A stretch of DNA of 64,000 nt from Bolinopsis microptera. Taxonomy: Eukaryota; Ctenophora; Tentaculata; Lobata; Bolinopsidae. The stretch covers positions 10,289,460-10,353,459 of the forward strand of contig NC_087083.1 of the NCBI RefSeq assembly GCF_026151205.1, given 5' to 3'. Positions within the stretch are counted from its first letter, which is position 1. The number at the start of each line of letters is the position of its first letter. Below the pieces are notes generated by a model that was not told the origin of the DNA, did not search any database, and worked only from the letters and a program-made list of their open reading frames with translations. Of the stretch, positions 24,905-58,940 are shown one piece after another. Made by a program: the position numbers and the translations under genes.

Positions 24905-25055
24905 CGGCACAGTTTGTGACCGTCACAGTTTGTGGCCGTCACAGTTTGTGACCGTTATTGTATGAGACACGTGACGTCATCAAAAAGTCACGTGACGTCA
25001 TCACAAAGTCACGCGTGACCTCTTCTAAGAGACAGTTTGTGACCGTTATTGTAAA
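24905..25055. promoter_or_regulatory. Tandem repeats with fused E-box/CRE sites every 21 bp
   Basis: CACAGTTTGTGACCGT-type repeats (24905-24960 and again near 25030) surround a 21-bp repeat whose units start with CACGTGACGTCAT. The E-box cores lie at 24968 and 24989, and a variant CACGCGTG lies at 25010, each 21 bp apart. E-box and CRE overlap in one unit. A regulatory function is an inference from site content. Confidence 0.55.
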
Positions 25056-26530
25056 GCAGGTGCTGTTTTAGGCAAAATCCTTCAACACACTGCTCACTCT
25101 TGTCCTTGTTTTAAGTGTGAATGTGTTTGTTTGGTTGAGTTGTTTTCTGACATTGTTAGTACTAGAGGTGTGACGGATATTAGCTATACCATCCAGTCAC
25201 CTGATTTAAAACTCCTTGACATGTTGCCTCTTGTGATTTCAAATGAGATTTCAGGGTTTCGGTTGAAGTTTTATACAGCTGAGAGACGCCTAGCTTTACA
25301 ATGTCAAACCAGGGTCAAACCAGGTTGTTGTGAAATATGTAGGTTTGAAAACTCACACCCCAATCAAGCTGTGTGTAGAAGCTGGTACACATGGGAACAA
25401 CGCGTCTTCTCCTTCTCACGCCTCCTTAGCAGAAGCAGCTGCTAACTGCTTCTTTTCTGGTATTCTCACACCTGTCGTGTTGATAAGCAGCGGGAAAACT
25501 CAATTCCCTTTTAGATTATTTTGTTTTTTAACATCGTGCGGGCATTTAGTTGTTGGTATTAATTTATCTTTATTCTGAAAATTTATTATTTATATGAAAG
25601 AAAATTTATTATTTATATGAAAGAAAACAAAAATATTGTATTTGGACAAACAATGGACAATTCAGTACTTCTTCCCGAACCATCCTCAACCTTCTCCGAC
25701 CTTTTCTCTCTTTCAAACAGAGTTCAGACAGATTTCAGACAGATTTTACTTCTCTACTGCTTCATGAACCTTTAATAATATACCGGATTCCTTCATAAAA
25801 TGTGCGATGAGCTGCCATCTTATTCGCGTGAAAAAGCAAAGCAATGTAAGAAGGGATTATTTTCATGATTTAATTATAATCCAATTTTAAAGAACTTAGA
25901 TCATACAACTTACTGTATTTATTATCAATAAACTCCACGATTCAAAAGCATAATCTCTTTTCTCTATTGCCTCGCGATATTAATATAAGTTAATTATTAG
26001 TAATTACTAATAATTTCATAATTCAATTATAATTCAATTCTAAATCTAACTTAAATCATAAAACTCACTGTATCTGCTATCACGATTCAAAAGCATAATT
26101 TCTTATTTTTGACGTCAACGTTTTATTAGTAATTTAGTAATTTAGTAAGCTTGCTCACATTCCTGGTGAAATTATTTCACCGTCGAAATTAACAAAACGG
26201 TCGGCCTACTCCGATATTAGCGCAATTAATTTGTATACTATCATTTTTAATTTAAAGTACTAGCTTTATTGCACGGCATCACGAATTTTCTAAATTATTG
26301 ACTAGAGCTGCAATTTTAATACGCCAACTACGTCACAATCCGCCACATTATTTGGTTGAAATCTTTTGTTGGGTTGATTGTGAAGTTTTGTTGGCTACTG
26401 CAGGGTGTATTAAATGCATGTTTCATACTGACACACTCCTCTTTCAGTCTCCATTCTACCTCCCCTCCCCACAATAGGCCACATTTTTCAAATTTTCCAC
26501 CCGCTCCCATTGTCAGCTTGTAAAGCCCTG
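25056..26530. other. Non-coding sequence, no gene recognised
   Basis: Open frames at 25131-25445, 25330-25578 and 26328-26558 have no recognisable domain. A 24-bp duplication lies at about 25577-25626 (AAAATTTATTATTTATATG, two copies). Confidence 0.45.
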
Positions 26531-26537
26531 GTTTACC

Positions 26538-26620
26538 GTGATAAATTACAACCACCACGTGCGCAAATAAATTACAACCAGCACGTGCACCAATAAATTA
26601 CAGCCAGCGCACGTGCACCA
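26538..26620. repeat. Three-copy repeat carrying E-boxes
   Basis: ATAAATTACAACCA followed by a CACGTGC core occurs three times, with cores at 26556, 26582 and 26610. Spacing is 26-28 bp, so these are not helically phased. Confidence 0.75.
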
Positions 26621-27175
26621 TGCTCGGTAGAAGGTTCCTAGGTGCGATTATTATACACTGCAAACCCCCGGGATGTTATATTCTAATTATAAATGCTTAA
26701 TTCCACATAATTTCCAACTTTTCTCTGCGGCCCATCAGGAACATGCACTTCAATGGTTCTTGTAACACAGCAACTTTAATTATTCCTCAATAACCTGCAG
26801 TAACAAGTTTGAAATTTTCCCGCCACCGCGCGGACCTCTCTAGCCGTTATTCATATATCTGTTAGTTAACATATCCTGTAGATTTCCTGCCCACCTCCTG
26901 GGTCCACAGTGCGGTGGATTGTAAACACAACCTGTATCCTACAACTGGTAGCAGTACCCTCGCTGATCAACATCTAACACCTCTGAAGTGAACTGTGAAG
27001 TAAGGGTAAATCAGGGCCCCGGCACTAATACCCCCGGAACCACGTGGCAGTTATCATAGTTACCAACCTAGTCGAGACTAGAAACACTCTCAGGTACTCC
27101 GAGAACAAGCAACTCTCTCTTTATTTCGCAGCCAGGAAGAGCTGGATAAAATCAGCCGTTATTGTGAACTTGAGG

Positions 27176-27255
27176 TAATTGCACCGGCTCCCTTTCTCTA
27201 GTGGGGGTGTAATTGCACCGGCTCCCTTTCTCTAGTTCTCCTAGTGGGGGTGTTT
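27176..27255. repeat. Tandem duplication (about 33-42 bp unit)
   Basis: GTAATTGCACCGGCTCCC through CTAGTGGGGGTGT is present twice; the second copy has a short CTAGTTCTC insertion. Confidence 0.85.
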
Positions 27256-30200
27256 ATTTGTAAGATTTACTCCTCCAGGATAAGCTACAATTTGACACTT
27301 CCACCCCCGGCCTACTCCATGGTATGTGACCTTCAGTCTGCTAACTGTGGATTTTCTTGTGAAATTATTTTGGTTTAAAACACGGGCCCTACCTTTCAAG
27401 ATATGCTGCAACCTTTTTTATTTAGAACCGGGTAATTGACAGACAGGTTTCACCCTTTTTAGTTTATTAATTGTTCAAGTTAGGTTAATGACGTGCGGCC
27501 TTTTTAATTAGAATATTATAATCTAGTTGGGAGTATGTGTGACCTTTTGTCGGGCCAGCATCTGCTTCGTTTATATTATTGGGATTACAATAACTTTATT
27601 AATACCACTTTTATTACGTGTCTGCTAAAGGTGAGTGCGGGTCAGAATAAAGCAAGATACTCATTTGGTCTACAACTTAACCTGATTTACAATAACTGTA
27701 ATTACTGTGGATAAAGTTTGTTTAATTTTATTAGTCAGTAACCAAGCCAATGATCCTCAACCTTAACCTTGTTCCAAGACGTCTACGTGTCAACTGTCCT
27801 GGACATTTTGTGCTTATTCTAACTGGTTTTGATCCCATCGAAAATACATTGTCGCCGAATTTATCGATGCGATGGTCAAACTTTGCCACTGTCTTGAGGC
27901 TGCCAGAGACCTGTAATATGGCTATATGGGTCACGAAGTCACGGAACACGACAGGTACAGCGTAATGTGATCATCGATCAGTTTATCTGGATTAATTTTA
28001 TTCTTGATATCTTAATATGTGTACTTAGTCTTATTTTTTTGGCGCCAAATATGTTGCATTTGTGCAAAATTGTAATGCACATTTTATTTACCAATTACCA
28101 GTAATCTTTGCTGATCGTCATTTTCTTGAAATACATATTCAGTGGTAATTCACTTATAATGATCTTCTAACATAATTACTAGGTCCGATATCCGTTCAAC
28201 ACTTTCCCGCATCAGGGTTCGCAGTTCCTCTTTTCTTTGTCCCAACATCCTTCAGTAACATAGACAAGCATACAAGTAACATAGACAAGCAAGTTTGTTT
28301 CAGTCGGCCTTGTTCAGCGAGCTACCAAAAAAGTTAATTTTTGTAAACGAAATTGTTGGTAGTTTTCTCGTTTAAATGTTATAAGTGCTGCAACTTTTAG
28401 ATCAGCAGAAGAACATGAACTACAAGAGGAATTTAATTCTACATAGCCATCATTGAGTTTGCCGTTCATAATTTACTTTATTTTCATGATGTGTCATTTT
28501 GCGATAAAAATCAGAAAAGTTGCAGGATTGCATGATTCGCGATTTTTTAAACGTGTAATACTATAATGTCAATATTGGTGCCTCTTATGTAGTTCAAAAT
28601 AAGTTTGTACATCGCTCAGATTATCATATTGCTTTGTTTAAACTACTTAGTTTATAATACTAAGTTTATAGTATTCAGTTTATACCACTCAGTTTATAGT
28701 GACTAGTAAGGAATGTCTAGGACATTCCAATAACTCATATCTTCTGTCTGATTTCCGCCTAGAATCTAGATAAGACACATTCTCTAACAATCCCTTTATG
28801 CTTTAAACCATGGCCGCACTCTCTTTCTTCATTTCAAAGGAGAATTTTTGAAATGCAAAGAATCAGATTCTTTAAATATTCTTAAGAATCAGATTCTTGA
28901 GCTGCACACGTCTGATTAGTAAAAATAAAATCTGTCTGAAAGATCAGTAGTTGTCTGAAAGAGCCACAGCTGTCTTTAAAACGGGAATTGCTTTGAGAAT
29001 TACTGGAAAATAGCTTTCTTTGTTCACGGTATCGCTGCTGTTTGTTGGCCACACCACGACCCAAGGAAAAAAGGATTTCGCGATTATTTTGGCCAAAATT
29101 CGCGATACCGTGATTTTTAACAGATTATACATTAAACTACACATCAAATTTGTCGCAAATAATGGGAAAAATCGCGATTTCCTTTTGTCCCTACCACCAC
29201 CACACCTCGACTATTAACTAAGTTATATCTACTACTTTGTTATTACTAAGTTATTACTAAGTTATTACTGCTATGTCATGTTAATCTTAGTATTTACAAT
29301 ATTCACCCTATCACTGAATATGCCCAATAACACGCTGTAACCATTTGAATATTTAGCGAGCTAATTGCTCTAACCATTAACCCTGGTCACAACAATAGAA
29401 TTATTACAATGTAACGATACAATAATCAACTTAATCTCCATTATCTGACTGGTTGACTACTGAATATACCCAGTTAATCCCCTCATCACCCCTCTTTACT
29501 CCTCGTTACCCTCTCTCACCCTGGTGCCAGTAAAACATGGCCTGCTGATTAACCATGCTGACGACACTCGACTCATTATAATAACAACAACACCACCCGC
29601 ACTAAGTTACGGTAATTATAGCCCTAAAATCCTTGACAGCTGCTTGACAAGTTTGATACCTAAATCTCTCCTAATTGTGTTGCCATGCCAACCGCGCCAG
29701 GGCTCCCATTTTCAGGGTTGCGGCCACGGGTAGTAGTCCATTGTGTGCAGGACGTTTAGCGTACAATTTAGTAATGGTTTGTGTCTCTGTACCTGCTTGG
29801 GAGCCGTGAGTGTAATCCTGCTGTAGTTTGTGGGTCACGTGGTGTGGGTACTGTGTTCTGATTGGTTCGTGAGTGTAATCCTGCTGTAGTTGTCATTCAC
29901 TTTATAAGACCTGGGTGTGTTATAGTATGAAAGCATGTAGATATACAGTGCGTACATTAACAATGCTGTTTTCAGATTTACTTTCATTTCAATTTATAGG
30001 ATCATCAGAGTAATAAGTTGTTGGTACTGGGTGTGGAGAATAGCTAGAGATGTAATGTGTGTTACACACACAGTGTGTATTTAATGTGACATGGAGCCTC
30101 CTTCTTTAATTTTAGTTAATTAGATGGCAAGAAGTTGTTTACTCTCAGATTATATGCCAGTTATTCAATAGTCCTCAAACCCTTCAATTTGCACGGTGTC

Positions 30201-30318
30201 AATAAAGCTTACAGACATTTGCATTATATTGTATTATATTTAGTGGTTTTATATATTTAGTGGTTTTTCTTAGTCGCTACATCCCCTTATATAACGAGAT
30301 TATGCTATGAACAGTGTT
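27256..30318. other. Non-coding sequence, no gene recognised
   Basis: No domain was seen in the small open frames (27731-27965, 28882-29217, 29524-29733). Minor structure: inverted CACGGTATCGC/GCGATACCGTG at about 29025 and 29100. A CACGTGGTGTGG...CTGATTGGTT segment at 29837-29872 resembles the array at 44270-44400, flanked by two copies of GTGAGTGTAATCCTGCTGTA. Confidence 0.45.
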
Positions 30319-30320
30319 GG

Positions 30321-30526
30321 GTTTACTCCAAACCTGTGAAATTTTCATAAAACCCTTAGACCAAGAAATCTTATTGTTTTTACGGCATATCATCTTGAAA
30401 ATTCTGAAAATAAAACATTTGTTGTTTACTCCAAACCTGTGAAATTTTCATAAAACACTTAGACCAAGAAATCTTATTGTTTTTACGGCATATCATCTTG
30501 AAAATTCTGAAAATTAAACATTTGTT
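30321..30526. repeat. 103-bp tandem duplication
   Basis: Copies start with GTTTACTCCAAACCTGTG at 30321 and 30424 and differ at only a few positions. This indicates recent duplication. Confidence 0.95.
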
Positions 30527-30600
30527 GTTGGGTCCTCCAAATCACAAGTCACTCAGCCCTACTTCAACAACTTCTCCCTGTAACGTGCCACTCTTTTAAG

Positions 30601-30785
30601 GTAACACACGTGACACGACGTCGCGTGACTGTAAAGTTGCTAACAGCTCATTTCCCTGCCATTATCCCTGAAACAGTCGCCAATATTGCTAACACTCACT
30701 CGTCGTGTCACGTGTGTTACCTGCCATCATCCCTGAAACAGTCGCCAATATTGCTAACACTCACTCGTCGTGTCACGTGTGTTAC
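30601..30785. repeat. 65-bp tandem duplication plus inverted E-box segment
   Basis: The unit beginning CTGCCAT (30656 and 30721) is duplicated almost exactly and ends in CGTCGTGTCACGTGTGTTAC. The exact inverse of that 20-mer sits at 30601-30620. This gives three CACGTG cores in one short region, one in opposite orientation. Confidence 0.9.
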
Positions 30786-30989
30786 CTTACACTCAGCCAG
30801 CCTGCAGTACTACCGTAATATAGCAGTTGTAAATAAGTACTTACAGGCGATGTGAGGCTGACCGTGACAGGAAACTAGCTAGGTGACATGATATTACAAT
30901 CATGATATCCGACCAAAGACTAATTATGTGATTAAATGATTAGATAATTACGATCCCGACTGCTCTGTCGGGACTCACGATATTATATG

Positions 30990-31092
30990 CTTGGTAATCT
31001 TGCCAGCAGCTCGGTCACGTGATACCCAAATTTGGTAATCTTGCCAGCAGCTCGGTCACGTGTTACCCAAATAAGGTAATCTTACCAGCAGT
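30990..31092. repeat. 41-bp repeat with E-boxes
   Basis: GGTAATCTTGCCAGCAGC followed by TCGGTCACGTG and TACCCAAAT is present twice, with a third partial copy. CACGTG cores start at 31016 and 31057, 41 bp apart. Confidence 0.85.
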
Positions 31093-31549: not shown

Positions 31550-32235
31550 TCCTCAAAGTCACGTGTTACTCATCTAACATGGTCATTCTGGGGTTAAAAT
31601 TACCTGCCCTGCCCGTGTCTCCGCATGTTCATGTTTCCTTCCCAGTCATCTTGGTCACAACTGTAAGTTGCAAATGTTTCAACATGTTTTCCTCACTTCC
31701 CAGCGCGGGCAACTCCTCATCTATTAACCCCGGACTTTTTGAACTTCCAGCAATCCAGCCGTGCCACGTGACCATTGAAATAGACCACGTGGCCATTCCG
31801 TGAGGTCACGTGAGTCGAGAGCTCTAAAAACTATCCCGCCTTCGGCCAAACTTTCTAGTACCTGCAGCAGCTAGTAACTATCATCACTCTCGGCTGGCGA
31901 GCTGTGATCGATACCCAGTGTTTAGTACGAAGTGACGATTGATACAGCCATACAAGGGGGAAAACAAATTATCTCTAACGCAGCAAGACAGGAGGCTTGC
32001 GTTAGGGAGACACTGAATGCTGCCTTCGATTCGTACTTAACAGCTCGCTTCAGTCAAGGACCGGCTCACATAATTCTTAGTTTCTCACTGTGGAGGATTG
32101 CGCGAGAGTTTATCATCCTCTTTAAGACAAACTCGATAGTTTTTTACTCGATGAATGAAATGGTGTGATTGTGGGGCCTTCCTAGTTGTGTGAAGCATTT
32201 CTCACCACGTGGTATGACGTCACACCACGTGATAG
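31550..32235. promoter_or_regulatory. E-box-rich segment, possible distal regulatory region
   Basis: At least six CACGTG cores lie between about 31560 and 32230 (31766, 31784, 31806 and others), far more than in the first 24 kb. The segment is also less AT-rich. An open frame at 31932-32168 has no recognised domain. It might be an upstream promoter or enhancer of the channel gene 12 kb downstream, but no direct evidence links them. Confidence 0.3.
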
Positions 32236-35630: not shown

Positions 35631-36487
35631 AGCTCTTCTCAAACACAAGGATATATTCTTGTGAACTCGGCTAGTATATATGAAACATTTGTCATGGAGT
35701 TGTAGAGGGAGTTATGTGCCTCGCCGGGCTAAAGTAGTGGATGACCTTGCTGTACGGCAAGTTAAACAAGGATCTGAAACTACTAGGTTCCGTACAGACT
35801 CAACTCTGCACCCGTGTCAATATGTTCATTATATGCAAGCCTCTTGATTTATAATCACCGAGTCTAGTAATTGTTTAAGAGAGTTCTCTGGCAGTTACGA
35901 AACTCGAGAGACTGTGGGATACTGAAGGGAAAGGAAGCAGTTCTAACGAGCTCTTCTCAAACACAAGGATATATTCTTGTGAACTCGGCTAGTATATATG
36001 AAACATTTGTCATGGAGTTGTAGAGGGAGTTATGTGCCTCGCCGGGCTAAAGTAGTGGATGACCTTGCTGTACGGCAAGTTAAACAAGGATCTGAAACTA
36101 CTAGGTTCCGTACAGACTCAACTCTGCACCCGTGTCAATATGTTCATTATATGCAAGCCTCTTGATTTATAATCACCGAGTCTAGTAATTGTTTAAGAGA
36201 GTTCTCTGGCAGTTACGAAACTCGAGAGACTGTGGGATACTGAAGGGAAAGGAAGCAGTTCTAACGAGCTCTTCTCAAACACAAGGATATATTCTTGTGA
36301 ACTCGGCTAGTATATATGAAACATTTGTCATGGAGTTGTAGAGGGAGTTATGTGCCTCGCCGGGCTAAAGTAGTGGATGACCTTGCTGTACGGCAAGTTA
36401 AACAAGGATCTGAAACTACTAGGTTCCGTACAGACTCAACTCTGCACCCGTGTCAATATGTTCATTATATGCAAGCCTCTTGATTTA
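35631..36487. repeat. 318-bp direct tandem triplication
   Basis: Units start with AGCTCTTCTCAAACACAAGG at 35631, 35949 and 36267, each 318 bp apart. The third stops at about 36487. By eye the copies look identical, so the event is very recent or maintained, or may be an assembly artefact. No domain was recognised within it. Confidence 0.95.
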
Positions 36488-36652: not shown

Positions 36653-37718
36653 TGTAGCAATACAACTATATTATGGCAATATATAGAAATATAAATGTAG
36701 CAATACAGCTATATTATGGCAATATATAGAAATATATATGTAGCGATACAGCTATATTATGGCAATATATAGAAATATATATGTAGAAATACAGCTATAT
36801 TATGGCAATATATAGAAATATACATGTAGCAATACAGCGATATTATGGCAATATATAGAAATATACATGTAGCAATACAGCGATATTATGGCAATATATA
36901 GACATATACATTTAGCAATACAGCTATATTATGGCAATATATAGAAATATACATGTAGCAATACAGCTATATTATGGCAATATATAGAAATATACATGTA
37001 GCAGTACAGCTATATTATGGAAATATATATAGAAATATATGTAGCAATACATCTATATTATGGCAATAATAATATATAGAAATATACATGTAGCAATACA
37101 GCTATATTATGGCAATATATAGAAATATACATGTAGCAATACAGCTATATTATGGCAATATATAGAAATATACATGTAGCAATACAGCTATATTATGGCA
37201 ATATATAGAAATATACATGTAGCAATACAGCTATATTATGGCAATATATAGAAATATACATGTAGCAATACAGCTATATTATGGCCTGGCAATATATAGA
37301 AATATACATGTAGCAATACAGCTATATTATGGCAATATATAGAAATATACATGTAGCAATACAGCTATATTATGGCAATATATAGAAATATACATGTAGC
37401 AATACAGCTATATTATGGCAATATATAGAAATATACATGTAGCAATACAGCTATATTATGGCAATATATAGAAATATACATGTAGCAATACAGCTATATT
37501 ATGGTAATATATAGAAATATACATGTAGCAATACAGCTATATTATGGCAATATATAGAAATATACATGTAGCAATACAGCTATATTATGGCAATATATAG
37601 AAATATACATGTAGCAATACAGCTATATTATGGTAATATATAGAAATATACATGTAGCAATACAGCTATATTATGGCAATATATAGAAATATACATGTAG
37701 CAATACAGCTATATTATT
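36653..37718. repeat. 43-bp AT-rich minisatellite, about 25 copies
   Basis: The unit includes GTAGCAATACAGCTATATTA and ATATATAGAAATATACAT. Early copies are more divergent and central copies nearly identical. A TGGTAATA variant recurs 129 bp apart (near 37502 and 37631), equal to three units, hinting at higher-order duplication. Irregular copies include insertions near 37065 and 37285. It is non-coding. Confidence 0.97.
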
Positions 37719-38055
37719 GACTGTTTCGGCGAGACTCAGGTGCTTAGTGTTTTGTCTGTATTATTAGATTTCTAATGCGATTTAAGTGGCCGTCTGGGTT
37801 GCGTGGTATTGGACACATACTGACACGAATCTCGGTTATTGTATGAATATCTTAGATAATATCGATAAGTTTAGATAAATTAGATAACCTCAAGTAAAGT
37901 AGATAAGTTCAGATAATCAATGATAAACACACTACTCATACCAGTAATTATTATACAGATAAAGGTTTGTATAAAGTGATCACTTCCCAGCCATAAACTC
38001 AATCCAATCTACAGTGGCTACACATTGCCGCTCCTCTAACGAGCTGTGCTACTAA

Positions 38056-38071
38056 ATAATAATAATAATAA
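38056..38071. repeat. TAA-type microsatellite at the LINE 5' junction
   Basis: A short run of AAT/TAA units directly precedes the first recognisable LINE codons. It may be the original insertion target. Confidence 0.7.
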
Positions 38072-39386
38072 AGGCATCTCCCTACCCACAGGTGAACAGA
38101 TCCATGAGTTGGAGGACGACGGCTATAAGTATCTCGGAATACTAGAAGCTAATGATATACTACACAAAGAGATGAAAGCACTGGTTACAAAAGAGTATAT
38201 CAGAAGAGTTAAAAAGGTTTTGAAATCCCAGCTTCATGGCAGGAATAGTATACAAGCGATTAACACCTGGGCTGTACCTGTGATAAGATATGGAGCTGGA
38301 ATTCTCTCATGGAATGTTGGGGAGACCAAAGCCTTAGATGTCAAGACCCGGAAACTGATGAGGATACATGGAGCTCACCACCCCCAAGGAGATGTTGATC
38401 GGTTATACGTCAGCCGTCAACTGGGTGGCCGTGGGCTACATAGTATAGAGGAAGTCGTTAAGAGAGAGGAGAATGCACTCACCACTTATGTGGTGAGAAG
38501 TAGAGACCCAGAACTGATTGCTCTGAAGGACTACTTTGTCAAAGACAAGATACTCTTGGGTGAAGAGATAGAGAAAGATATTGACCGAACACAACGCGAG
38601 GAAATCCGCAAGGAGAAATGGACTGCTAAAGTGATGCACGGACAGTTCCCAAGGCAGATGATGGGTACAGCAGACCCGTTAACCTCTTGGAACTGGCTCA
38701 CCCAACAAGATTTGAAGAAGGAGACAGAAGGATTGTTGATAGCAGCCCAAGACCAAGCACTTAGGACTAATTACGTGAAGCACAGGATTGACAAAACACC
38801 TGGCTCTTCTCCCCTCTGCAGACTCTGCAGAAATCATTACGAGACAATAGACCACATACTGAATGGGTGCCCAAAACTTTCACAGACAGAATATAAGTGT
38901 CGGCATGACAAAGTAGCTGCCGCATTGCACTGGAGTCTGTGCAAGGAATACGGCTTCCCACGCAGTAAAAGGTGGTACGAACACCGGGCAGAGAAGGTGC
39001 TGGAGAACGGACAAGTCAAGATATTGTGGGACTTCCATGTCCAGTCGGACCACGTTATCGAACACTGTAGACCGGATCTCCTCCTGGTAGACAAGGTAAC
39101 CAACGCAGCAACCATCATTGACGTTGCAGTCCCAGGAGATACCCGGATCTTGGATAGAGAACAAGAAAAGATTCTGAAATATCAAGACCTGAAAAGAGAA
39201 ATTAAGAAGAACTGGAATTTACGAAAGGTCACAATCGTCCCTGTGGTGATAGGCGCATTAGGAACTATCACCATAAACTTTCGTAAACACCTCGACGCAG
39301 TCCACTGCAATCTGAGCATCTCTAATCTCCAGAAGACAGCTCTGCTTGGATCAGCCAGGATTCTCAGGATGGTCTTAGACATATAA
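38072..39386 (+). CDS. 5'-truncated LINE ORF: RT C-terminus, zinc knuckle and restriction-like endonuclease (R2/R4/NeSL-like)
   Basis: This frame of about 440 codons encodes the C-terminal half of an RLE-type non-LTR retrotransposon. It starts after the catalytic YxDD, with a YKYLGILE motif near 38130 and thumb-like sequence including INTWAVPVIRYGAGI (about 38260-38304). It then has a CRLC...H...C zinc knuckle at about 38820-38870. The restriction-like endonuclease follows, with RPDLLLVDK (about 39069-39095) and IIDVAVPGD (about 39115-39141), matching the PD...D core that cuts the target DNA. The C-terminus runs to LQKTALLGSARILRMVLDI. In this class the protein normally inserts sequence-specifically. 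The first methionine at 38046 falls in upstream sequence before the microsatellite, so the natural start is missing. Assignment to R4/Dong rather than another RLE clade is an inference helped by the TAA context. Confidence 0.88.
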
Positions 39387-44194: not shown

Positions 44195-44482
44195 TCTGCT
44201 GTTATTTGTTATCTGTGGTGGCGGTATATTTGACTCCAGTTCTGGTGGTGGTGGTGGTTAGTTTGGGGTTTCAGAGCTGAGGTGGATACTGTGCTCTGAT
44301 TGGTTGGTTTGTGTCACGTGGTGTGGATACTGTGCTCTGATTGGTTGGTTTGTGTCACGTGGTGTGGATACTGGGCTCTGATTGGTTAGTTTGTTATCCG
44401 TGGTGGCGGTGTATTTGACTCCACCAGTTCTGGTGGTGGTGGTGGTTAGTTTGGGGTTTCAGACTTCAGAGCTGAGGTGGAT
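44195..44482. promoter_or_regulatory. CCAAT/E-box repeat cluster upstream of channel exon 1
   Basis: Three tandem units contain CTGATTGG (inverted CCAAT); the first two also carry TGTCACGTGG, with E-box cores at 44315 and 44356, 41 bp apart. The array is bracketed by two copies of a segment with GTGGCGGT, TATTTGACTCCA and GGTGGTGGTGGTTAGTTTGG (about 44217-44285 and 44400-44480). It lies 450-730 bp before the exon 1 ATG, so promoter activity is plausible but inferred. Confidence 0.5.
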
Positions 44483-45639: not shown

Positions 45640-45935
45640 GAGAAGTGTTCTGATTGGCCAGTGAAAAATATAAAGTTCTCAAACATTCTCAGTCCGACAA
45701 CTGCAGATTATTCTTTTGTACTATTATACAGTGTAAAAGTACGGCTGGTTAGATCACACGTTCCCACACGCCTACCTGACTCTCTTCTCGCGTCGCTCTA
45801 CGACGTGTCAATTGTTTTGAAGTGGCTTGAAGTGACCAGCAGTCTCAAATTTGTATTGGCCAATGAGAAGGCTCGTTAGAAATCACGTGTTTTGTATTGG
45901 CCAATCAGAAGGCTCGTTATAAAACACGTGTTCAG
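45640..45935. promoter_or_regulatory. CCAAT/E-box 41-bp duplication in intron 2
   Basis: GTATTGGCCAATGAGAAGGC (a palindromic TTGGCCAA, i.e. CCAAT on both strands) is followed by a CACGTG core. The unit is repeated with cores at 45884 and 45925, 41 bp apart. An isolated TGATTGGCCAGTG lies near 45650. Confidence 0.55.
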
Positions 45936-46930: not shown

Positions 46931-47258
46931 CGGCCGTCAGATCAGGATAGAATATGTCGTGGTCTAACAGACAGCGTCACATGTACATCTGATGACGTCA
47001 CATGTACATCTGATGACGTCACATGTACACCTGACGACGTCACATGTACATCTGATGACGGCACATGTATATCTGATGACGTCACATGTACATCTGATGA
47101 CGTCACATGTGCATGTGCATCTGATGACGTCACATGTACATCTGATGACGTCACATGTGCATCTGATGACGTCACATGTACATCTGATGACGTCACATGT
47201 GCATCTGATGCCGTCAGATCAGGATAGAATATGTCACGTGGTCTAACAGACAGCGCCC
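46931..47258. repeat. 21-bp CRE array 1 with flanking direct repeats
   Basis: About eleven units of 21 bp, each with GATGACGTCACATGT (consensus CRE plus ACATGT), the first TGACGTCA at 46993 and 47014. One unit carries an extra six-base GTGCAT. The array lies between two copies of a segment with GTCAGATCAGGATAGAATAT and GTCTAACAGACAGCG (46936-46978 and 47213-47254). The heptapeptide frames open on both strands are spurious. Confidence 0.93.
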
Positions 47259-47784
47259 ACGTTAAAAACCGCGCTTATCGCGTAAAACTTGCAATAGCTG
47301 GTGTGCATCGTAGAAAAACTGTCTAAACAGATTTAAATTATCAGATAATGGTTTAACTTTGCACATTACATTAAATGTAAACATTACATCTAAGGCCCAC
47401 ATTTCATCTAAGGCCCGTCAAATGAAATCGTATGATTTTTTACTAACAAAATCTTAAGAATATCCACGGTTTCTTCGCGTACCTGGTTATTTCTTGTTTC
47501 AACTCTAGAAATCACAGATGATATCTCAATTAGCTAATATGACTTGTAATTAGTATTTTTAAAACACGATAACGACATTTTCACTTCGACATAATCTCAA
47601 TAAGTGTTGTTTAAAAGTTTAAATGTTGAAAATAACGTTGTACTCAGTACTCACGATATGTAAACTGCCAAGGTAAACTCTTCCGTTAAACTTCATCGCA
47701 GCTTCAGAGAGTAGATGTGTAACTAACCATAAACTGTGAAGGTTTTCTGACTTGTGTGTATATTACGTGTATAATGTATATTGT

Positions 47785-47882
47785 AACGTGTATATCACGT
47801 GTATATCACGTGTATATCACGTGTATATCACGTGTATATAACACGTGTATATCACGTGTATATCACGTGTATACCACGTGTT
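47785..47882. repeat. 11-bp E-box array
   Basis: ATCACGTGTAT repeats about eight times, with CACGTG starts at 47796, 47807, 47818 and onward, 11 bp apart apart from one 14-bp step near the middle. Confidence 0.93.
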
Positions 47883-49493: not shown

Positions 49494-50066
49494 GACGTCA
49501 CATGTATATCTGATGACGTCACATGTAGATCTGATGACGGCACATGTAGATCTGATGACGTCACATGTAGATCTGATGACGTCACATGTAGATATGATGA
49601 CGTCACATGTACATCTGATGACGTCACATGTAGATATGATGACGTCACATGTACATCTGATGACGTCACATGTAGATCTGATGACGTCACATGTAGATCT
49701 GATGACGTCACATGTAAATCTGATGACGTCACATGTAGATCTGATGACGGCACATGTAGATCTGATGACGTCACATGCAGATCTGATGACGTCACATGTA
49801 GATATGATGACGTCACATGTACATCTGATGACGTCACATGTAGATATGATGACGTCACATGTAGATATGATGACGTCACATGTACATCTGATGACGTCAC
49901 ATGTAGATCTGATGACGTCACATGTAGATCTGATGACGTCACATGTAAATCTGATGACGTCACATGTAGAACTGATGACGTCACATGTGCATCTGATGAC
50001 GTCACATGTACATCTGATGACGTCACATGTAGATATGATGACGTCACATGTACATCTGATGACGTA
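49494..50066. repeat. 21-bp CRE array 2, about 27 units
   Basis: Each unit contains GATGACGTCACATGTA. Variant bases mark a higher-order pattern: the GATGACGGCACATGTAGATC variant recurs 210 bp apart (49533 and 49743) and CATGTAAATC recurs 231 bp apart (49711 and 49942), so blocks of 10-11 units were duplicated. Both strands are open in frame because 21 is a multiple of three and the unit lacks stops; these heptad frames are not considered genes. Confidence 0.97.
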
Positions 50067-50176: not shown

Positions 50177-50366
50177 GTAAGAGAGTAGGTCACTTTTTTT
50201 TCTGTGTTCAGGGAGCAGTCTTGCCACATAGGTCCGGTAGTTCCGAACGTTTAGGCAGGGTGCTAATGTACTTTAAATGGTTGTCTATGTAAATTGCTTA
50301 GCTTCGGTTAAAAGCTTTAAATGTCCTAGTTGTCAGTTATGTGTTTTTCAATGTAGCGATGTGAAA

Positions 50367-50588
50367 CGTCACGTGGTAATGTGATAACGTCACGTGGTAA
50401 TGTGATAACGTCACGTGGTAATGTGATAACGTCACGTGGTAATGTGATAACGTCACGTGGTAATGTGATAACGTCACGTGGTAATGTGATAACGTCACGT
50501 GGTAATGTGATAACGTCACATGGTAATGTGATGACGTCACGTGGTAATGTGATAACGTCACGTGATAATGTGATAACGTCACGTGTAA
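50367..50588. repeat. 21-bp E-box/half-CRE array, about 10 units
   Basis: Units contain AACGTCACGTGGTAATGTG. The CACGTG cores start at 50370, 50391 and so on, exactly 21 bp apart. One unit has CACATG instead and one has GATGACGTCACGTGG with a full CRE. Confidence 0.96.
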
Positions 50589-50906
50589 GTTTTATAACGT
50601 CTTATTGTATTCCAGTTCAGTTTTGACCGTCTTGAAGTAAGTCTAAATAAACTGATTATTCTTTCACTTACTTCACTTTCACTTTCCTCGGCACTATCAG
50701 CTTATCTTTAAATGATCACACGTGGTTTTCAATCACGGCACGCACTACAAGATTTTGAGCATTGAGCATTACACAAGAGCAACTCCAGGCAATACTATTG
50801 TTTTTCAGGCAACATCTCGTTCATTATCAGATCTAGCTTCAGTAGATATTTAGTAGTATTTAAACCTGAGTCCTGATATAATCAGCGATTAAGTACCTAA
50901 AAGTTT

Positions 50907-51025
50907 TATCTGATGATGTCACGTGTATATCTGAAGATGTCACGTGTATATCTGATGATGTCACGTGTATATCTGATGATGTCACGTGTATATCTGATGA
51001 TGTCACGTGTATATCTGATGATGTA
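50907..51025. repeat. 21-bp E-box array 3, about 5.5 units
   Basis: Units contain GATGATGTCACGTGTATATC, with cores at 50920, 50941 and onward, 21 bp apart. This differs from the other 21-bp arrays in flanking bases, so it is a separate or diverged expansion. Confidence 0.95.
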
Positions 51026-51775: not shown

Positions 51776-51924
51776 GATTGAGCGGGGCCGAGGTAGCCAA
51801 CAAGGGGACTCAGTAGAAAACATTGTAACTGTAAGTGTCCATTAAGTGAGAAGTGAGTTGGGACACGATAATACACACCACGTGTCATAAGAGTGCTGAG
51901 AGAGAGAGTGTGCATGTAGGCAAA

Positions 51925-52371: not shown

Positions 52372-53528
52372 AGATTACTTTTTAATGATATAAAATTGTG
52401 GAGTAGTTTATTTGGACAGCGCGAGAGGGTTGGTCACTGTACTGTTGAGATACCTGAAAAAAATCCTCCGATTACACAAGACAGAAAGACAGAAAGATTA
52501 TATGGACAACTTAAATCAAGATAAACTAAAGATTAAACAGCTACAGAGATCAGAAACTTACTGTTAAAAAAGATTTAATTTCTTAGTAGTTATAGCTTAT
52601 TTGCATACTTTTAAAATATGCTATGAAATGTATATCATATTAAAGATGCATCACGATTAGGAAGTTAAAAGACTACTTCATATATAGCCATGATAATATC
52701 TACCCACGATAATAATATCTACTCATCAACAATGTTCACAATGTTATCTCTTGCTAATGGACATGATCCGTCAAGTCTATTATAATTATCCAGCGCACAG
52801 CTGATTATTGTGTTCAGACAAGTCGATTATAACAGTCAACAGCAGGGCGATGATGAACCAATGAAACATAATGTCATCTAATGAATACGTTAATAACACA
52901 GCTGATTCAGTTATTATATTATATTGATCAACATTGTCAGGTTACAACAACTCAGCCATCATAAACTTCAAAGACGCGTTTAATTGTTACTCCGCACACT
53001 TCCGAACAATCATCGGAGGCGTGCGCCAATCACAGGACTGTATTGACGTATTGTAGTCATGTGACTCAGTTTAGTCAATCAGAAAGCCTAAACGATTGTA
53101 TGATACCATTGGATGCATTAATTGAACAAATTAGATCTTTTTCGAGAAGCCTTAATGCACGAGCATTGATTAACTAATAATCAATCAATCGATCAAAGTT
53201 TTAGATTGGTTTGCATATTAGGTAGAATTTAGACTTGGCTACTGGTGGGGAGGTGACCAGAGTTTATTTTGACGCGTTTTGTCCCTGTGGCATGCCGCAA
53301 GCGGGTGTGTATGTCGCTGTCAAAACGAACATCTGTTATCTCACCGCTTGTACTGAAGTGTATTATTATTCATTTGACTAGCATGCATCAACCAAGCAAG
53401 AAATTAATATAAATAATAGCTCATTTGTCGGATATCCAACATCAGTTCGATATTCAGTCAAGCAGTGACACGTTTAATCGTATAATTAATTCATCGCTTA
53501 ATTAATTAACCACTTCCTTAATTACCAG

Positions 53529-53657
53529 ATTTCGAGACGGATGTTCCCGAATCACTACGATCGGGATAAGCTGGACGAGGTTGAGCTCCACAACAAGTTG
53601 CGACACTACATCGTCAACGAAGTGATCAGCTTGCAGACCAACAAGGGCATGGTCCTG
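53529..53657 (+). CDS. BK (Slo1-like) potassium channel, exon 3 (S0-S1 linker)
   Basis: The exon has 43 codons, phase 0 at both ends, bounded by TTACCAG (53522-53528) and CTG|GTAAGA. It starts ISRRMFPNHYDRDKLDEVEL, a charged cytoplasmic linker. It ends with EVISLQTNKGMVL, which matches the conserved V-I-S-x-Q-(S/T)-x-x-G-R-V-L motif just before S1 in Slo1 channels. The exon boundary falls where S1 should begin. Codon use is noticeably GC-richer than the surrounding intron, as expected of a real exon. The next exon, which should open with the hydrophobic S1 segment, was not found before 64000, implying an intron of more than 10 kb. Confidence 0.85.
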
Positions 53658-56600
53658 GTAAGAAATATTTCCTTGTGTTTGAATTTCTATTTTTTAACAA
53701 ATTTCTGTAATATAATAAGTAATTAACAACTGGGAAAGTCTAGTTTTATTTCCTTGTTTTCCGTTTAATGGTAAGCTGGTGTCTTGATGTTGCGCGATGA
53801 CTGCTACATACAAAAGCTTATGATGATCTGTATTCGTGCGACAAAAGAATATCATAAACCCGTTCCGAGCGAAATAGTATTCAATGGAATGGAATTTACA
53901 CTTGCCATATTTGCGAGCTTTTGACATTTTAGGATCGAACACGGTCACGAAAGTGGAGCTTTTGTGGCGTTCCGTAGAAAAATAGCGCGACTGAAATTAA
54001 ATACGAGTGTAATAGTGTTCTAATGGTGGTTTAATGAAATGATCCAGTGAAAAGTTCTGGTAGAATGTTCTAGTGAAATATCTAAGTGAAATATCTAAGT
54101 GAAATTTTATACTTTGAAAAGTAAAATGTGGTGAGATAAAGTAGTAATATGTAATTTAATGTCTGCTTATAAAAGTACAATGCAATAATTTTAATCGGTA
54201 CTAAGCCATTGCTTCGCTTCTCTACAAAATATTTGTAGTGACACATTTTTAGGACAAATAGACTTGATGATGAGAAGAAATTAAACAACTTAAAATCGTC
54301 GCACTAGTAGAAACACTGATACGACTTTAAGTTGCAGTCCTTTAACAAATTTTTAAATTGCAGTTACTCAATTTCCGACTTAATTTAAATCCAGTCGACG
54401 CACCATTTCAGCTAAAAGAAATCGTATCAAAGGAATAACCTTAAGTTATACAAGACATGTCATACCGAAATGAGAGCCAATGTAACTCGTAAATTTTACG
54501 CTTTCGAAAACATTTTGGGACCCATTTTTATTTTTTGGGATTTTCACGATTTTAGTTGTGAAGAGATTACTGGCAATAGACTGTACAATTTCGTGGTATT
54601 GAACAGTATTTTTAATGTAACTAAATGGGATTAATGCTCCGATAGTACATAATAATTGAATATGAACGGTGGAAATAGGCCATCAATGGTAATCTGTTAC
54701 AACAGCTTAGTAGTGTTTAGTTTGGTTAACTCTAAGAGATACCGACTGTAGCGCGCTGAAGAAATAACGTTATACAAACTGTTTTTATCTGCATCCACCA
54801 TGACATAAATGCGCGGCGCGCACTACCTCGTTATCAAATTACTATTTAACTGGCATTTACAGTCTCCGAGGGTTCATGGTACGAAATATTAACGAACGCA
54901 ATTGTCAACATTTACCTCTTTTGCTCGGACAATATATTAGTCACCCTGAACTTTTGTCACTTGCGACGAAAAGCCCCTTACAAAGCAATTCATTTAATTG
55001 AGTTGCTCGGGGCAACGAATAGTTAGAATGTGGTATGCTGGTCACGCATGCATTATTAATACGATCTTGATAATTTTAAGGTATGATCACCCCACTCGAC
55101 TGTGTATTATATTAACTTTATTAGCTCAAGTTCATTTGGAGTGGCATAATCGGGTGATCAGTGATGTGGCAACAGTCGCATTGTGTGGTTTTTATGTACT
55201 GGTCCCCTCAAGTAAGATTGTCTAAACTGTAAAATGTTGTGGATAATTGATTGATTTTACACGGCGAGAGGGCGGACTTTCAAGTATGGTTCCCTTTATA
55301 AATACTTCAATTAGGAGGCTGGTAAAAAAAAGAGAAGAGTTTACACATTATATATTAGCCGCCTAAAATGTTTCAATCCGTACAGCCATTCAGATTACTG
55401 ACTGGTTTCTTTCCCGTGTGAACTAATGTTTTTCAAGTTTACTCGTTCCAAGTCTGTCCTTAGGTAAAAAATAATTTGATTATTATAATTCCTTTAATAG
55501 GTGAAAAAATACCATCATTCACATCATTCTAGCCTTTTCATCATCTCAACATAGAGTGTATCACTTCCTCTGATCTTCAAACATACATTTCTCTTGGCCC
55601 ATTTTCCAGATGTGCAGTTCGTTAGCCCGCATTAAATTAACTGCAAGATTATATTCAAGATTGACACACCCTGCAGCTATAGTATCATGTTAGTTGATCT
55701 GGTTCCTTTTCAGTTACGTCATTTTACTTTATCTGGTGTAAGATCTAATTACATTGTGCACTGCTAAAATTTGATGTTTAAGAGGGGAAAGTTTAAATTT
55801 TTTGCTTTTTCCTAGTTTCTGCTGTCGCTAAGTGAATTTTATGACTACGAATCCATTAGAGCATTAGTATGTATTTCATCAACCTGCCTGTTAATCAACA
55901 TGAAATTGTCTGCATAAAAGTTACGAAAAAATAATAATGAAATTTCCATTATCATTATGTGGCAACACAATTTTATGTGAGTGAAGCACCAGGTGAACCG
56001 TTTAAAGTGATGAACTGCTGCCACTACTACTCCTTCATCAACAAATTGGTTTAATTAATTAGGCATTTCGCGGAAGCGGCTCCTGTCTGCACGTGTAGCA
56101 CCGTCTTGTCCTCGGTCTTTCCAGTCTCTTTTTTAATTCTCCCTCTGGGGTGGCGAAACACTTTTGTTTTGTTTCGAACCTTCCAACTTGAAGGAACCAA
56201 TCAGATGCTCGGATAGATATCACGTGTTAAACCCAACATACAGAATACAGATGATAAGTAATAAACATGTCCGTGAAATGTTTGTCTTATTGGTTATTAC
56301 AGTGCAGTGCTGATATATTAGTACCTATGACGATTCAGGTCATATTTCTGTTTAAAAATACTGGTAGATCTAAACTTTTGCTTGGTAGAGAGTTGGAATG
56401 CTTGCTTTGTTGTTTTTCGGGTAATTTTTTGTAAATTCTGTGGCTACCATTCTTTCTCGTGATACTTTTTATCCTCTTATCGACTCTAAACACCAGCAGA
56501 ACCTTCAGCTCCTCCAAATACTCATGTAATTGTTAGAATGAGAGCGCTAAAGACCAAAAGGTTCCTTTTATCCCAGCAGTGGAGTGTGAAACCTCGAAAA

Positions 56601-56905
56601 AATTTAAATCACATTAACAGACTTATTTTACTGATTAATTGTAATAACACTATCTACATAATACAATAACAGCAATGTAACGAGGATTAATATCCCAGAC
56701 TTTCATGAGGACAATAGTCTTCATGATCTTACTGTGCTTCATTTGTTAGAATGGCTTCATGAATTCATCTTTCCATTTTAGAGTCGATCTTGTTCTGACA
56801 TTTGTTGTCAACTTCTCTTGATTTGAGTGAGCCATTATAGATCTCTTTTAAGTTTTAACTCTCTAAGTTTATTTAGATTTTGTTGTACTGAGCTAAAGGA
56901 CTGTC
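53658..56905. other. Intron 3 of the channel gene (first part), no exon recognised
   Basis: AT-rich with no recognised coding or repeat structure. The frame at 54998-55225 is hydrophobic but shows no S1-like motif. Confidence 0.5.
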
Positions 56906-56908
56906 GCC

Positions 56909-57299
56909 AGGTATCAACACCAGGTATCAACACCAGGTACCAGGTATCAATACCAGGTATCAACACCAGGTACCAGGTATTAACACCAGGTACCAGGTAT
57001 CAATACCAGGTACCAGGTATCAATACCAGGTACCAGGTATCAACACCAGGTACCAGGTATCAATACCAGGTACCAGGTATCAATACCAGGTACCAGGTAT
57101 CAATACCAGGTACCAGGTATCAATACCAGGTACCAGGTATCAATACCAGGTACCAGGTATCAACACCAGGTATCAACACCAGGTACCAGGTATTAACACC
57201 AGGTACCAGGTATCAATACCAGGTACCAGGTATCAATACCAGGTACCAGGTATCAACACCAGGTACCAGGTATCAATACCAGGTACCAGGTATCAATAC
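56909..57299. repeat. 20-bp minisatellite (CAGGTATCAATACCAGGTAC)
   Basis: About 19 units with AACACC/AATACC variants and occasional 10-bp half units. Each unit has an internal GGTATCAATACC near-palindrome and two CAGGTA strings that resemble splice donors. The frame opened is repeat-derived. Confidence 0.96.
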
Positions 57300-58310
57300 A
57301 GTATTGGCTGTTAAAGCATTCAATCAGTTATAATCATCAATATTTTCATATAACATTCCTCCTCTGAAACGGTTTCATTTATGATTTTAAGGCGACATTT
57401 TAAGTAATTTCTTCACATAGTAACCGTGACATCACACTCGATCCCACATGAGTATTTATACTGCTTACATATTGTATGTTTATCTCTCTTCAATGACTAA
57501 AGATCTTGGCTCTACACTATACCACTTTACTCCACTATACTCCGTGTACCATCTCACCATATCAACTATACCATGTACCAGTTCTTGAGTTCTTTGTAGT
57601 TGTTAATAAGTTGTTTAATACTGTTATATTATAATTTATGGAGGTTGTTACATCTTGATAGTATCGCAATCAAACTGCCAGAAAATGGCTGGTTATTATG
57701 GATAAGAATGCATCTCAATAGCATACTGAATAGGATACTGACCATTTGTTATCAATTAAAGAGAGCAAACTAGTTGTCATCAATTCATACCTTTTAGAAC
57801 ATTAAGTGATTACAGTTTGACATTCTGTAGCGTTAGAGCACCATCACAGCAACATGGCTGTTTTACCATATCCGTGCATGATTGGACCATTTACAGACCA
57901 GGTCTGGTGTTATCAGACAATTGTTTTGCAGCTCAGAAGTACGGCCCGGTGAAAGTCAAGTGACACCCGCTCACTCCCACCCTTCTTCAACTCTCATTAA
58001 TTAACTTATCATGTTTTGGGTGGTAATTAAGTAATTATAGCAACAACACTTAGCCAGTGTTTACTGGCAGTGTTTAAATAAACACGTGCGGTGTTCTGTT
58101 TTAACCCGCGCACGTGCGCCTGTTAATGACATCTGAAGAGCGTGTGTATCTGTGCTATTTTCTTTAATACTCCACTCTCCTTGTGTTTTGTGTACTTATG
58201 CTTAAAGTATCTGTACTTATAGTCAGATATCATTTGTACGTGGACACCGACAACATCCCGCTAGCTTGAGTTAAAAATACTTCCTCGGATCGTCTTCATG
58301 TTCGACTGCT
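57300..58310. other. Intron 3 sequence, nothing recognised
   Basis: No exon, RNA or repeat was recognised apart from scattered single E-boxes (for example near 58083). Confidence 0.45.
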
Positions 58311-58311
58311 A

Positions 58312-58455
58312 TGAATGGTTGGTTTTAGTGACGTCATGATATGTATTTCCTCTGATTGGTTGGTTTTAATGACATCTTGATATGCATTTCCTCTGATTGG
58401 TTGGTTTTAACTTTTAGTGACGCCATAACCTTTACCCCCTCTGATTGGTTGGTTT
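58312..58455. promoter_or_regulatory. CCAAT/CRE repeat, about 40-49-bp units
   Basis: TCTGATTGGTTGGTTTT (inverted CCAAT) occurs at about 58351, 58391 and 58440, with a related AATGGTTGGTTTT at 58313. Three of the four are followed by a CRE or decayed CRE (GTGACGTCATG, ATGACATCTTG, GTGACGCCAT). Confidence 0.55.
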
Positions 58456-58799
58456 TCCTACGATCCACAGGCACAGCGGTATACCTGCTCACGAGTCTGT
58501 ACTTTGGGTGAATTCCACTTTTCATTGCTGGTTCAGCTGCGTGCTCCTGCTCACAATGTAACTCGTCATCAGTAATTGTGTGAAAAAACATAGGCTACCT
58601 TGTATTTAGTATTTATTACAACTCGCGGTTATTTATTCCGTCGTTTTTGCTACACTTGAGCTTGTTATTCATGAGTAGACAACAGGCTGAGCGTGGTATA
58701 CCATTGAAGGGAAATAGTGCATACATTCCACAATTGTGAATCCAGCAATATAAAACTATCAATCATTAGCTTTTCTCAACTCCCCTGCTATCCGGCCCC

Positions 58800-58940
58800 C
58801 TGATTGGCCGCTGTATCGCGACGTCACAGTCTAACTACTCGCTGATTGGCTGTTGCATTATGACGTCACAGTCTAACTGTTCTCTGATTGGCTACTGGAT
58901 CATGACGTCACAGCTTTCCCACTATTCTATTGGTTGCTGT
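58800..58940. promoter_or_regulatory. 42-bp composite CCAAT/CRE array
   Basis: Three units begin CTGATTGGC and carry a GACGTCACAG core 20 bp in (CRE; the second and third are full TGACGTCA). The unit is 42 bp, twice 21. A fourth CTATTGGTTG follows without a CRE. This is a compact, promoter-like arrangement, here inside the presumed intron 3. Function is inferred from site content only. Confidence 0.6.

Follow-up and report, generated by a model that had tools for sequence, protein, structure and literature searches.

A CRE-like site lies about two helical turns from a CCAAT box in the X2-Y part of MHC class II promoters, within a module that also contains an RFX site and an S box. CCAAT boxes have likewise been paired with E-boxes. 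In the human studies, the distance from the E-box centre to a downstream CCAAT is given as 17 or 18 bp for NF-Y and USF1 (PMC7046753), USF and MITF sites lie 10-12 bp 5' of CCAAT as measured from the motif centre in the figure (PMC7793273), and USF2-NFYA spacings are given as 9, 10 and 21 bp (PMC5223348). The differences between these values indicate that the figures depend on the measuring convention and that other geometries exist. The U3 enhancer of LTR12/ERV9 is described as a tandem series in which every unit, about 41 nt long, contains a CCAAT bound by NF-Y, its partners being GATA and MZF1 sites inside the LTR (PMC11853044), and double CCAAT direct repeats at defined spacing, with c-Fos as partner, are described in human promoters (PMC4982600).

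In the present study, we analysed a 64-kb stretch of DNA (the window) together with a sample of the same genome. Our results make it probable that part of the E-box (CACGTG) and CRE (TGACGTCA) sites belong to genome-wide composite modules with fixed spacing, some of them amplified as minisatellites, with the binding proteins being predicted.

Motif excess and tandem arrays in the window

The window contains 84 copies of CACGTG, where 9.9 would be expected (sd 2.8; 100 dinucleotide shuffles), and 43 copies of TGACGTCA, where dinucleotide shuffles give 0.7. Among palindromic hexamers, CACGTG is present in more of the window's arrays than any other (16 of 66), followed by TATATA (8). The claim that cores and spacings visibly recur was borne out, the listed positions and spacings being correct with few corrections: at 25010 the copy is partial, leaving CACGTG only at 24968 and 24989, and the repeat at 58312-58410 extends by one looser copy to 58448. 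The sample consisted of 20 stretches of 10 kb from C1 (26.2 Mb of the 264.65-Mb assembly) and C2, of which one (L017) is all N, so that 190 kb were readable. It holds 65 CACGTG, or 3.4 times the first-order expectation as compared to 8.8 times in the window, and 3 of its 81 arrays contain the motif. The excess of CACGTG is thus genome-wide, yet stronger within the window. That base composition or chance produces it is contradicted by the shuffles and by reversed-motif controls for motif counts, pairs and CCAAT combinations; CpG depletion is only mild (observed/expected 0.67), no point in favour of this explanation was found, and its probability is negligible. A search of the window for Rfam matches and tRNA genes found none.

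Composite units with a CCAAT box at a fixed gap occur at the following places in the window:

44282..44394, minus strand: 41-bp array, CACGTG-N11-CCAATCAG-N19-CACGTG
45850..45932, plus strand: 41-bp array, unlike the 44282 array in sequence and equal to it in gaps, CCAAT-N19-CACGTG-N11-CCAATCAG-N19-CACGTG
58312..58448, minus strand: three CCAATCAG boxes at steps of 41 and 48 bp; every box has its CRE, or a CRE-like site, at N18, and N11 is not retained
58800..58933, minus strand: 42-bp array, TGACGTCA-N11-CCAATCAG-N18-TGACGTCA
29836..29865, minus strand: lone CCAATCAG-N19-CACGTG, with a spacer resembling the unit of the 44.3-kb array
56197..56226, plus strand: lone CCAATCAG-N19-CACGTG

Three of these arrays, unlike in sequence, repeat in tandem a composite that has the same two gaps, in the form E-box-N11-CCAAT-N19-E-box or CRE-N11-CCAAT-N18-CRE, and the fourth shares the N18 gap. 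The CCAAT component had been overlooked in the original prediction. The period of the composite arrays is the sum of the two CCAAT gaps (41 = 6+11+5+19; 42 = 8+11+5+18), which suggests that a CCAAT-box protein belongs to the unit. Since NF-Y bends DNA, an argument that assumes a straight helix with proteins along one face does not apply to these arrays. The earlier reading of the 41- and 42-bp spacings as whole helical turns gives way here to the CCAAT gaps; the 41-bp array at 30991-31091, which lacks CCAAT, lies outside the two-gap account. The latter is one of several arrays and clusters without the module:

46975..47216, plus strand: 21-bp array, unit ATCTGATGACGTCACATGTAC, of one family with the 49494 and 50907 arrays
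49494..50065, plus strand: 21-bp array of about 27 copies, of one family with the 46975 and 50907 arrays
50907..51024, plus strand: 21-bp array, the GTCACGTG version of the 46975/49494 family
50359..50601, plus strand: 21-bp array AACGTCACGTGGT, possibly a distant relative of the 46975/49494/50907 family (15/21)
24968..25013, plus strand: 21-bp array with an E-box overlapping a CRE, CACGTGACGTCA, two full copies
31765..31812, plus strand: three CACGTG at exact 21-bp steps, the spacers not being tandem copies
32206..32231, plus strand: E-box, CRE, E-box, 10 bp from centre to centre
47756..47881, plus strand: 11-bp CACGTG array
30991..31091, plus strand: 41-bp CACGTG array without CCAAT
30655..30787, plus strand: 65-bp CACGTG array of two copies, with CCAAT-N24-CACGTG, which differs from the fixed gap
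15919..15944, strand not assigned: CACGTG pair at 20 bp, non-tandem
24576..24603, strand not assigned: CACGTG pair at 22 bp, non-tandem

The 11- and 21-bp arrays in the window have no CCAAT partner. The units at 46975, 49494 and 50907 are identical at 18-20 of 21 positions and thus form one family, which rules out independence of all the 21-bp arrays. The original description of the arrays as independent was accordingly overstated for these three. Mismatches in the window arrays are rarer in cores (11/778) than in spacers (63/1301; rotation P 0.009), in a comparison for which arrays were selected for recurring cores and in which 3 of 18 blocks show the opposite trend. The CACGTG triple (31765, 31786 and 31807) and the E-box/CRE/E-box triple at 32206-32231 are additions to the sites first reported.

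Fixed gaps between CCAAT and E-box or CRE across the genome

A scan of 5-mers by offset around 105 non-redundant CACGTG from window and sample returned ATTGG at +25, equivalent to CCAAT at a gap of 19, as the most enriched combination (7 sites vs 0.18 expected; in the sample alone 4 vs 0.09, P 3e-6). Genome-wide, CCAATCA-N{0,30}-CACGTG has 2960 matches, as compared to 154 for the reversed control, and CACGTG-N{0,30}-CCAATCA has 4395, as compared to 149. Distinct spacers were counted after collapse at 70% identity. Among the matches listed for the first arrangement (82 of 100 places analysed, 68 distinct, all in C1), N19 accounts for 24 distinct places and N18 for 12, with a mean of 0.96 at gaps outside 17-20. 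For the second (59 of 100 listed places analysed, 48 distinct, all in C1, the other 41 being omitted as copies of families or arrays already typed), N11 accounts for 14 and N10 for 6, with a mean of 0.89 outside 10-12. The complete set of CCAATCA-N{0,30}-TGACGTCA matches (96 vs 22 in the control; 76 analysed, 67 distinct) peaks at N18 with 19 distinct places, 17 without the window's two, and a mean of 1.64 outside 17-19. The original suggestion of a dispersed regulatory pattern is thus well supported by fixed gaps that recur between unlike sequences. Of 20 N19 sites, 5 have a second CCAAT 30-31 bp upstream (0.04 expected).

Some of the module places are copies of dispersed families, and it could be argued that transposon families with E-box and CCAAT promoters make the pattern through insertion and internal tandem copying, as in human LTR12. 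Copied spacers are evident, such as the recurring N11 spacer ACACAATTCAG and N10 spacer ATTAGGTAAG; besides the copies among the listed CACGTG-N-CCAATCA matches, L054, L055, L064 and the 44.3-kb array have one unit in common, and L046, L051 and L056 another. The CCAAT-bearing repeats of about 41 nt in LTR12 U3 (PMC11853044) and the HERV repeats described among human NF-Y/USF sites (PMC7793273) point the same way. Against this, the N19, N11 and CRE N18 peaks are made of spacers that remain distinct after the 70% collapse (for the E-box, among the matches listed), and of 18 N19 places examined with their flanks, two array loci being kept apart, 13 lack any related sequence across their centre in the DNA compared. 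We consider this origin unlikely, and even under it many elements would have reached the same gaps independently, so that a constraint on the gap would still be needed.

The module is confined to a part of the sites. Among 20 C1 loci that contain E-box pairs, one has a CCAAT at N19 and one at N10, most E-box clusters being without the module; the 5' side in the 190-kb sample has five E-box/CCAAT pairs, one at N10 and none at N11; and the observed cases of a CRE at N11 all belong to one window array. In a CCAAT-centred scan of the sample, GTCACG of the module ranks sixth and CACGTG lower, and some of the words that outrank GTCACG form overlapping runs typical of repeats. One of 18 loci (L047) has an open-frame ATG about 110 bp beyond the module.

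Spacing of CACGTG pairs

Pairs of CACGTG at spacings of 7-36 number 31368 genome-wide, as compared to 5372 for the reversed motif and 3291 for CAGCTG. The raw counts peak at 20-22 bp (10134 vs 947 in the reversed-motif control), followed by 15-17 bp (3640 vs 513, 7-fold), 10-12 bp (3620 vs 306, 12-fold) and 25-27 bp (2065 vs 781). According to the original prediction, E-box and CRE sites keep to multiples of 10.5 bp, which would place their proteins on one face of the helix, and the genome-wide count that it proposed bears this out at the 20-22 bp peak and departs from it at 15-17 bp, a spacing as common as 10-12; 13-bp pairs are also frequent. Among distinct non-tandem pairs, the phase score is 0.59 (P 0.0002) for the 15 pairs of the window, which is where the idea arose, and -0.03 (P 0.57) for the 14 pairs of the 190-kb sample. 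Adding 12 C1 loci to the sample gives 0.21 (n=32, P 0.04), while the 18 pairs at those loci, hand-picked as not visibly arrays, give P 0.006 by themselves, and all 59 pairs give P 0.0006 in a set that takes in C1 loci selected by spacing class. The flanking DNA shows that C1 loci 299893 and 996812 are tandem, as are parts of 930289 and 1141572. Phasing at 10.5 bp is therefore weakly supported, and the helix-face arrangement is possible, if rather doubtful. A general minisatellite period of about 10.5 bp was also considered and rejected, as inspection by eye of arrays without E-box or CRE cores shows no such period.

It is also conceivable that a bound or breakable CACGTG provokes small tandem duplications whose length is set by break geometry rather than by use. 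About one third of CACGTG have a close neighbour (31368 pair starts vs about 90000 copies extrapolated from the sample), many such neighbours sit in tandem arrays of very different units and periods, and the raw 20-22 bp peak is compatible with such a process. The listed array periods are broad, however (11, 13, 15-23, 27 and 64), and duplication would leave both the non-tandem 21-bp triple and the fixed-gap CCAAT between unlike spacers unexplained, which makes it an improbable account.

A predicted NF-Y module and its relation to known systems

From the sites, gaps, unlike spacers and tandem copies that recur across the genome, we infer the following bound proteins and effect on transcription. 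The module would combine a CCAATCAG box of NF-Y type with one of two partners, either an E-box of the GTCACGTG kind (the USF/MITF/TFE class) or a CRE (the CREB/ATF class), placed 10-11 bp 5' of the box or 18-19 bp 3' of it (18 for a CRE), with the second upstream CCAAT as an optional addition. NF-Y binding to CCAAT could open the chromatin and fix the bHLH-zip or bZIP dimer in place, so that the two together make up a complex at a promoter or enhancer. The modules have repeatedly been duplicated head to tail and, since copies 41 bp long with an E-box, or 42 bp long with a CRE, preserve both gaps, each E-box would serve the CCAAT on both sides. The 11-, 21- and 22-bp arrays form a second layer of CCAAT-free E-box/CRE minisatellites, in which the cores, judged from the window, are on the whole better kept than the spacers.

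Fixed gaps read from sequence alone would offer a direct view of the protein arrangement required on DNA, and the arrays provide a natural copy-number series of a fixed-gap module, useful for relating copy number to output. If the N11 side equals the human one, the contact would be conserved between distant animals, and the N18/19 side with its exchangeable E-box and CRE yields a clear structural prediction. More tentatively, and with the odds against it, CCAAT-N18/19-E-box/CRE could be an old animal enhancer geometry, in use throughout the genome of this invertebrate-like animal, with the MHC class II X2-Y pair of vertebrates as one surviving example. E-box and CRE would then fit a single socket equally well, and selection would favour the 41/42-bp minisatellites, in which the N11 contact and the N18/19 contact are both made by every copy added.

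Compared with described systems, the N11/N10 side resembles the human NF-Y/USF1-USF2 composites of the ENCODE data as described, in which the E-box precedes CCAAT with a set orientation and a constant distance; the E-box here is likewise 5' of CCAAT, with the N11 and N10 peaks among the matches listed standing well above the mean per gap. Counted between the centres of the E-box and of CCAAT, N11 corresponds to 16.5 bp, as compared to the 17-18 bp given in PMC7046753, and does not fit the 10-12 bp of PMC7793273 if that is counted from the motif centre. Unlike the human composites, the modules here have a second geometry at least as sharp as N11, CCAAT-N18/19-E-box, allow a CRE to replace the E-box and are amplified into arrays. 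This side is less familiar, the human accounts being mainly concerned with an E-box 5' of CCAAT (PMC7046753, PMC7793273), and a literature search of limited reach found no description of CCAAT-N18/19-E-box arrays. The tandem units of about 41 bp carrying CCAAT match those of LTR12/ERV9 and differ in that their partners are E-boxes or CREs, in several unlike sequences. The second CCAAT may recall the human double-CCAAT repeats as described in PMC4982600. Finally, the CCAAT-N18-TGACGTCA places have the CRE on that side of CCAAT where MHC class II X2-Y has its CRE-like site, the spacing of the X2-Y pair being the general figure given at the outset, whereas most places here carry an E-box where the MHC module has its CRE.

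Abundance of E-box and CRE sites

The site positions of the original prediction were correct. The window holds 84 E-boxes (CACGTG) against 9.9 expected and 43 CRE sites (TGACGTCA) against 0.7. E-box and CRE sites are dense at 24-32, 44-52 and 56-63 kb, and the window scan found neither from ~32.3 to 44 kb. Tandem repeats are numerous. CACGTG is carried by 16 of the window's 66 arrays vs 3 of 81 in a 190-kb sample from C1 and C2, so the window appears to be an extreme instance of a tendency found across the genome. In the 264.65 Mb searched (232 contigs; window, C12:10289460-10353459), CACGTG crowds with itself at 7-36 bp (31368 vs 5372 for the reversed-motif control); CAGCTG gave 3291 against its own control of 243. 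By spacing, CACGTG pairs (control in brackets) numbered 3620 (306) at 10-12 bp, 3640 (513) at 15-17, 10134 (947) at 20-22 and 2065 (781) at 25-27, all inflated by many-copy arrays, of which those near 0.415 and 1.79 Mb on C1 contribute many pairs. The window also contains:

1689-4397, plus, and 9988-11427, minus: reverse-transcriptase frames (RVT_1), LINE-like by impression
35631-36487: 318-bp unit in tandem, 2.7 copies with 100% matches
36653-37717: 43-bp array, 24.5 copies, shortly after the 318-bp repeat
38040-39386, plus: 448-aa open frame with no Pfam match, resembling a retroelement 3' part (impression only)

The 318-bp repeat before the 43-bp array could be a recent duplication or an assembly feature.

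A CCAAT box at fixed gaps

Some arrays carry a module, absent from the original prediction, in which a CCAAT box (CCAATCAG), the NF-Y type of site, stands at fixed gaps from a CRE or an E-box, RTCACGTG being a USF/MITF/TFE-type site. Gaps are written as the bp between sites (N11, 11 bp). The CCAATCAG word is 4x denser in the window (14, array copies counted; 21.9 per 100 kb) than in the sample (5.3). Read on the CCAAT strand, the window's modules are:

44.3 kb, minus: CACGTG-N11-CCAAT-N19-CACGTG array
45.9 kb, plus: CACGTG-N11-CCAAT-N19-CACGTG array
58.8 kb, minus: TGACGTCA-N11-CCAAT-N18-TGACGTCA array
58.3 kb, minus: CCAAT-N18-CRE or CRE-like site, other gap not kept
29.8 and 56.2 kb: single CCAAT-N19-CACGTG copies

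The gap sums 6+11+5+19 and 8+11+5+18 account for the periods of 41 and 42 bp; the 41-bp array at 31.0 kb lacks CCAAT, which makes it an exception to this rule.

The sample holds CCAAT-N19-CACGTG at four places (L011:9641; L021:8355, 6569 and 3976), against about 0.09 expected (P 3e-6); they share GTCACGTG and have spacers unlike one another. The three in L021, a 10-kb stretch, lie on one strand within 4.4 kb, among open frames resembling 7TM-receptor exons (impression). On the 5' side, the sample's five E-box/CCAAT pairs include none at N11 and one at N10, and in a CCAAT-centred scan of the sample the module's GTCACG ranks only sixth, some words ahead of it running together like repeats.

Table. 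Genome-wide searches and distinct places by gap among the matches listed.
Search; matches; reversed control; matches used; distinct places; mean at other gaps
CCAATCA-N{0,30}-CACGTG; 1454+1506; 84+70; 100 listed (C1 up to 15.5 Mb), 82 analysed (18 near-copies dropped), 68 distinct; N19 24, N18 12, N17 3, N20 3; 0.96 outside 17-20
CACGTG-N{0,30}-CCAATCA; 2188+2207; 75+74; 100 listed (C1 up to 8.5 Mb), 59 analysed (41 copies of typed families/arrays dropped), 48 distinct; N11 14, N10 6, N22 4; 0.89 outside 10-12
CCAATCA-N{0,30}-CRE; 37+59; 10+12; all 96 (C1-C13 and C128), 76 analysed (20 of one C128 array dropped, none at N18), 67 distinct; N18 19 (17 without two window places), N9 and N21 4 each; 1.64 outside 17-19

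For the listed C1 stretch of the first search, sample word counts give a chance figure of ~0.9 per gap against the mean of 0.96; the background is thus at chance, and N18 and N19 are not. Extrapolating from these C1 matches, we estimate ~600 distinct CCAATCA-N18/19-CACGTG places in the genome. The 24 N19 spacers share little information except an extended CCAATCAG-A and two bases ahead of CACGTG; compared in pairs they are identical at 4.70 of 16 positions on average, more than shuffled rows (3.99, max 4.25), an excess to which those edges contribute. The module accounts for a minority of E-box pairs, as CCAAT stands at N19 in one and at N10 in one of the 20 C1 loci fetched for such pairs. The dropped array (C128:16409-17002; ~30-bp units with CCAATCAG and TGACGTCA) has 10 N17 and no N18 among 20 matches listed.

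Kinship, possible constraint and phasing

Twenty N19 places were fetched with flanks, and two arrays (L063, L064) were set apart. No module-overlapping relative was found for 13 of the other 18 in the window, the sample or the other fetched loci, a set of ~0.3 Mb, so these loci are unlike one another rather than shown to be unique. The remaining five have relatives, in two families, one being the 44.3-kb unit, which also makes the array at C1:12.03 Mb (L064). The module is preceded by a second CCAAT, at a distance of 30-31 bp, in 5 of the 20 N19 sites of the 18 loci (L045-L062), against 0.04 expected; the distance is about three helical turns. A dispersed element with CACGTGTTACAAATACAAATACACGTG has four copies among those listed, within ~40 kb (C1:615445-615771, 639152, 640636 and 655753).

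The 21-bp arrays had been considered independent, but their units at 46975, 49494 and 50907 form one family (18-20 of 21 positions). Over 18 array blocks, mismatches to consensus affect 11/778 core and 63/1301 spacer cells (core mask rotated, P 0.009), a comparison biased towards its result because blocks were selected for their cores. The core rate is the higher in three blocks (50911, 58312, 62239); the least biased block, a 26-copy array, has 2/312 core vs 18/234 spacer mismatches. For the 11-, 21- and 22-bp arrays, which have no partner site, the best reading is that E-box or CRE sites were multiplied as minisatellites, their core perhaps under some constraint. At C1:930139-930454, 18-bp repeats fuse E-box and CRE (CACGTGACGTCATCACAC).

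In place of a clean comb at the predicted 10.5 bp, spacings lean somewhat towards values near 11 and 20-22 bp. The phase score (mean cosine at 10.5 bp over distinct pairs with non-tandem flanks) was 0.59 over 15 pairs in the window (P 0.0002), -0.03 over the sample's 14 (P 0.57), 0.40 over 18 pairs from 12 C1 loci that were hand-picked from the 7-36-bp pair listing as showing no visible array (P 0.006), and 0.21 when sample and picked loci were combined (n=32, P 0.04). Around 105 non-redundant E-boxes, a second E-box is enriched at offsets of 21-22, 41-43, 27-28 and 11-12 bp.

Possible mechanism and human comparisons

As the likeliest mechanism, NF-Y would bind cooperatively with a bHLH-zip or bZIP dimer sitting on either side of CCAAT; tandem copying of modules would then build multi-site enhancers or promoters. 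For the N18/19 side, one comparison is the X2-Y pair of MHC class II. Another is the USF2-NFYA spacing of 21 bp mentioned at HoxB7 in PMC5223348. In human NF-Y/USF1 regions, according to PMC7046753, the E-box precedes CCAAT by 17 or 18 bp, close to N11 here, and the 10-12 bp given for human NF-Y/E-box spacing in PMC7793273 matches N11 only when taken as a gap.
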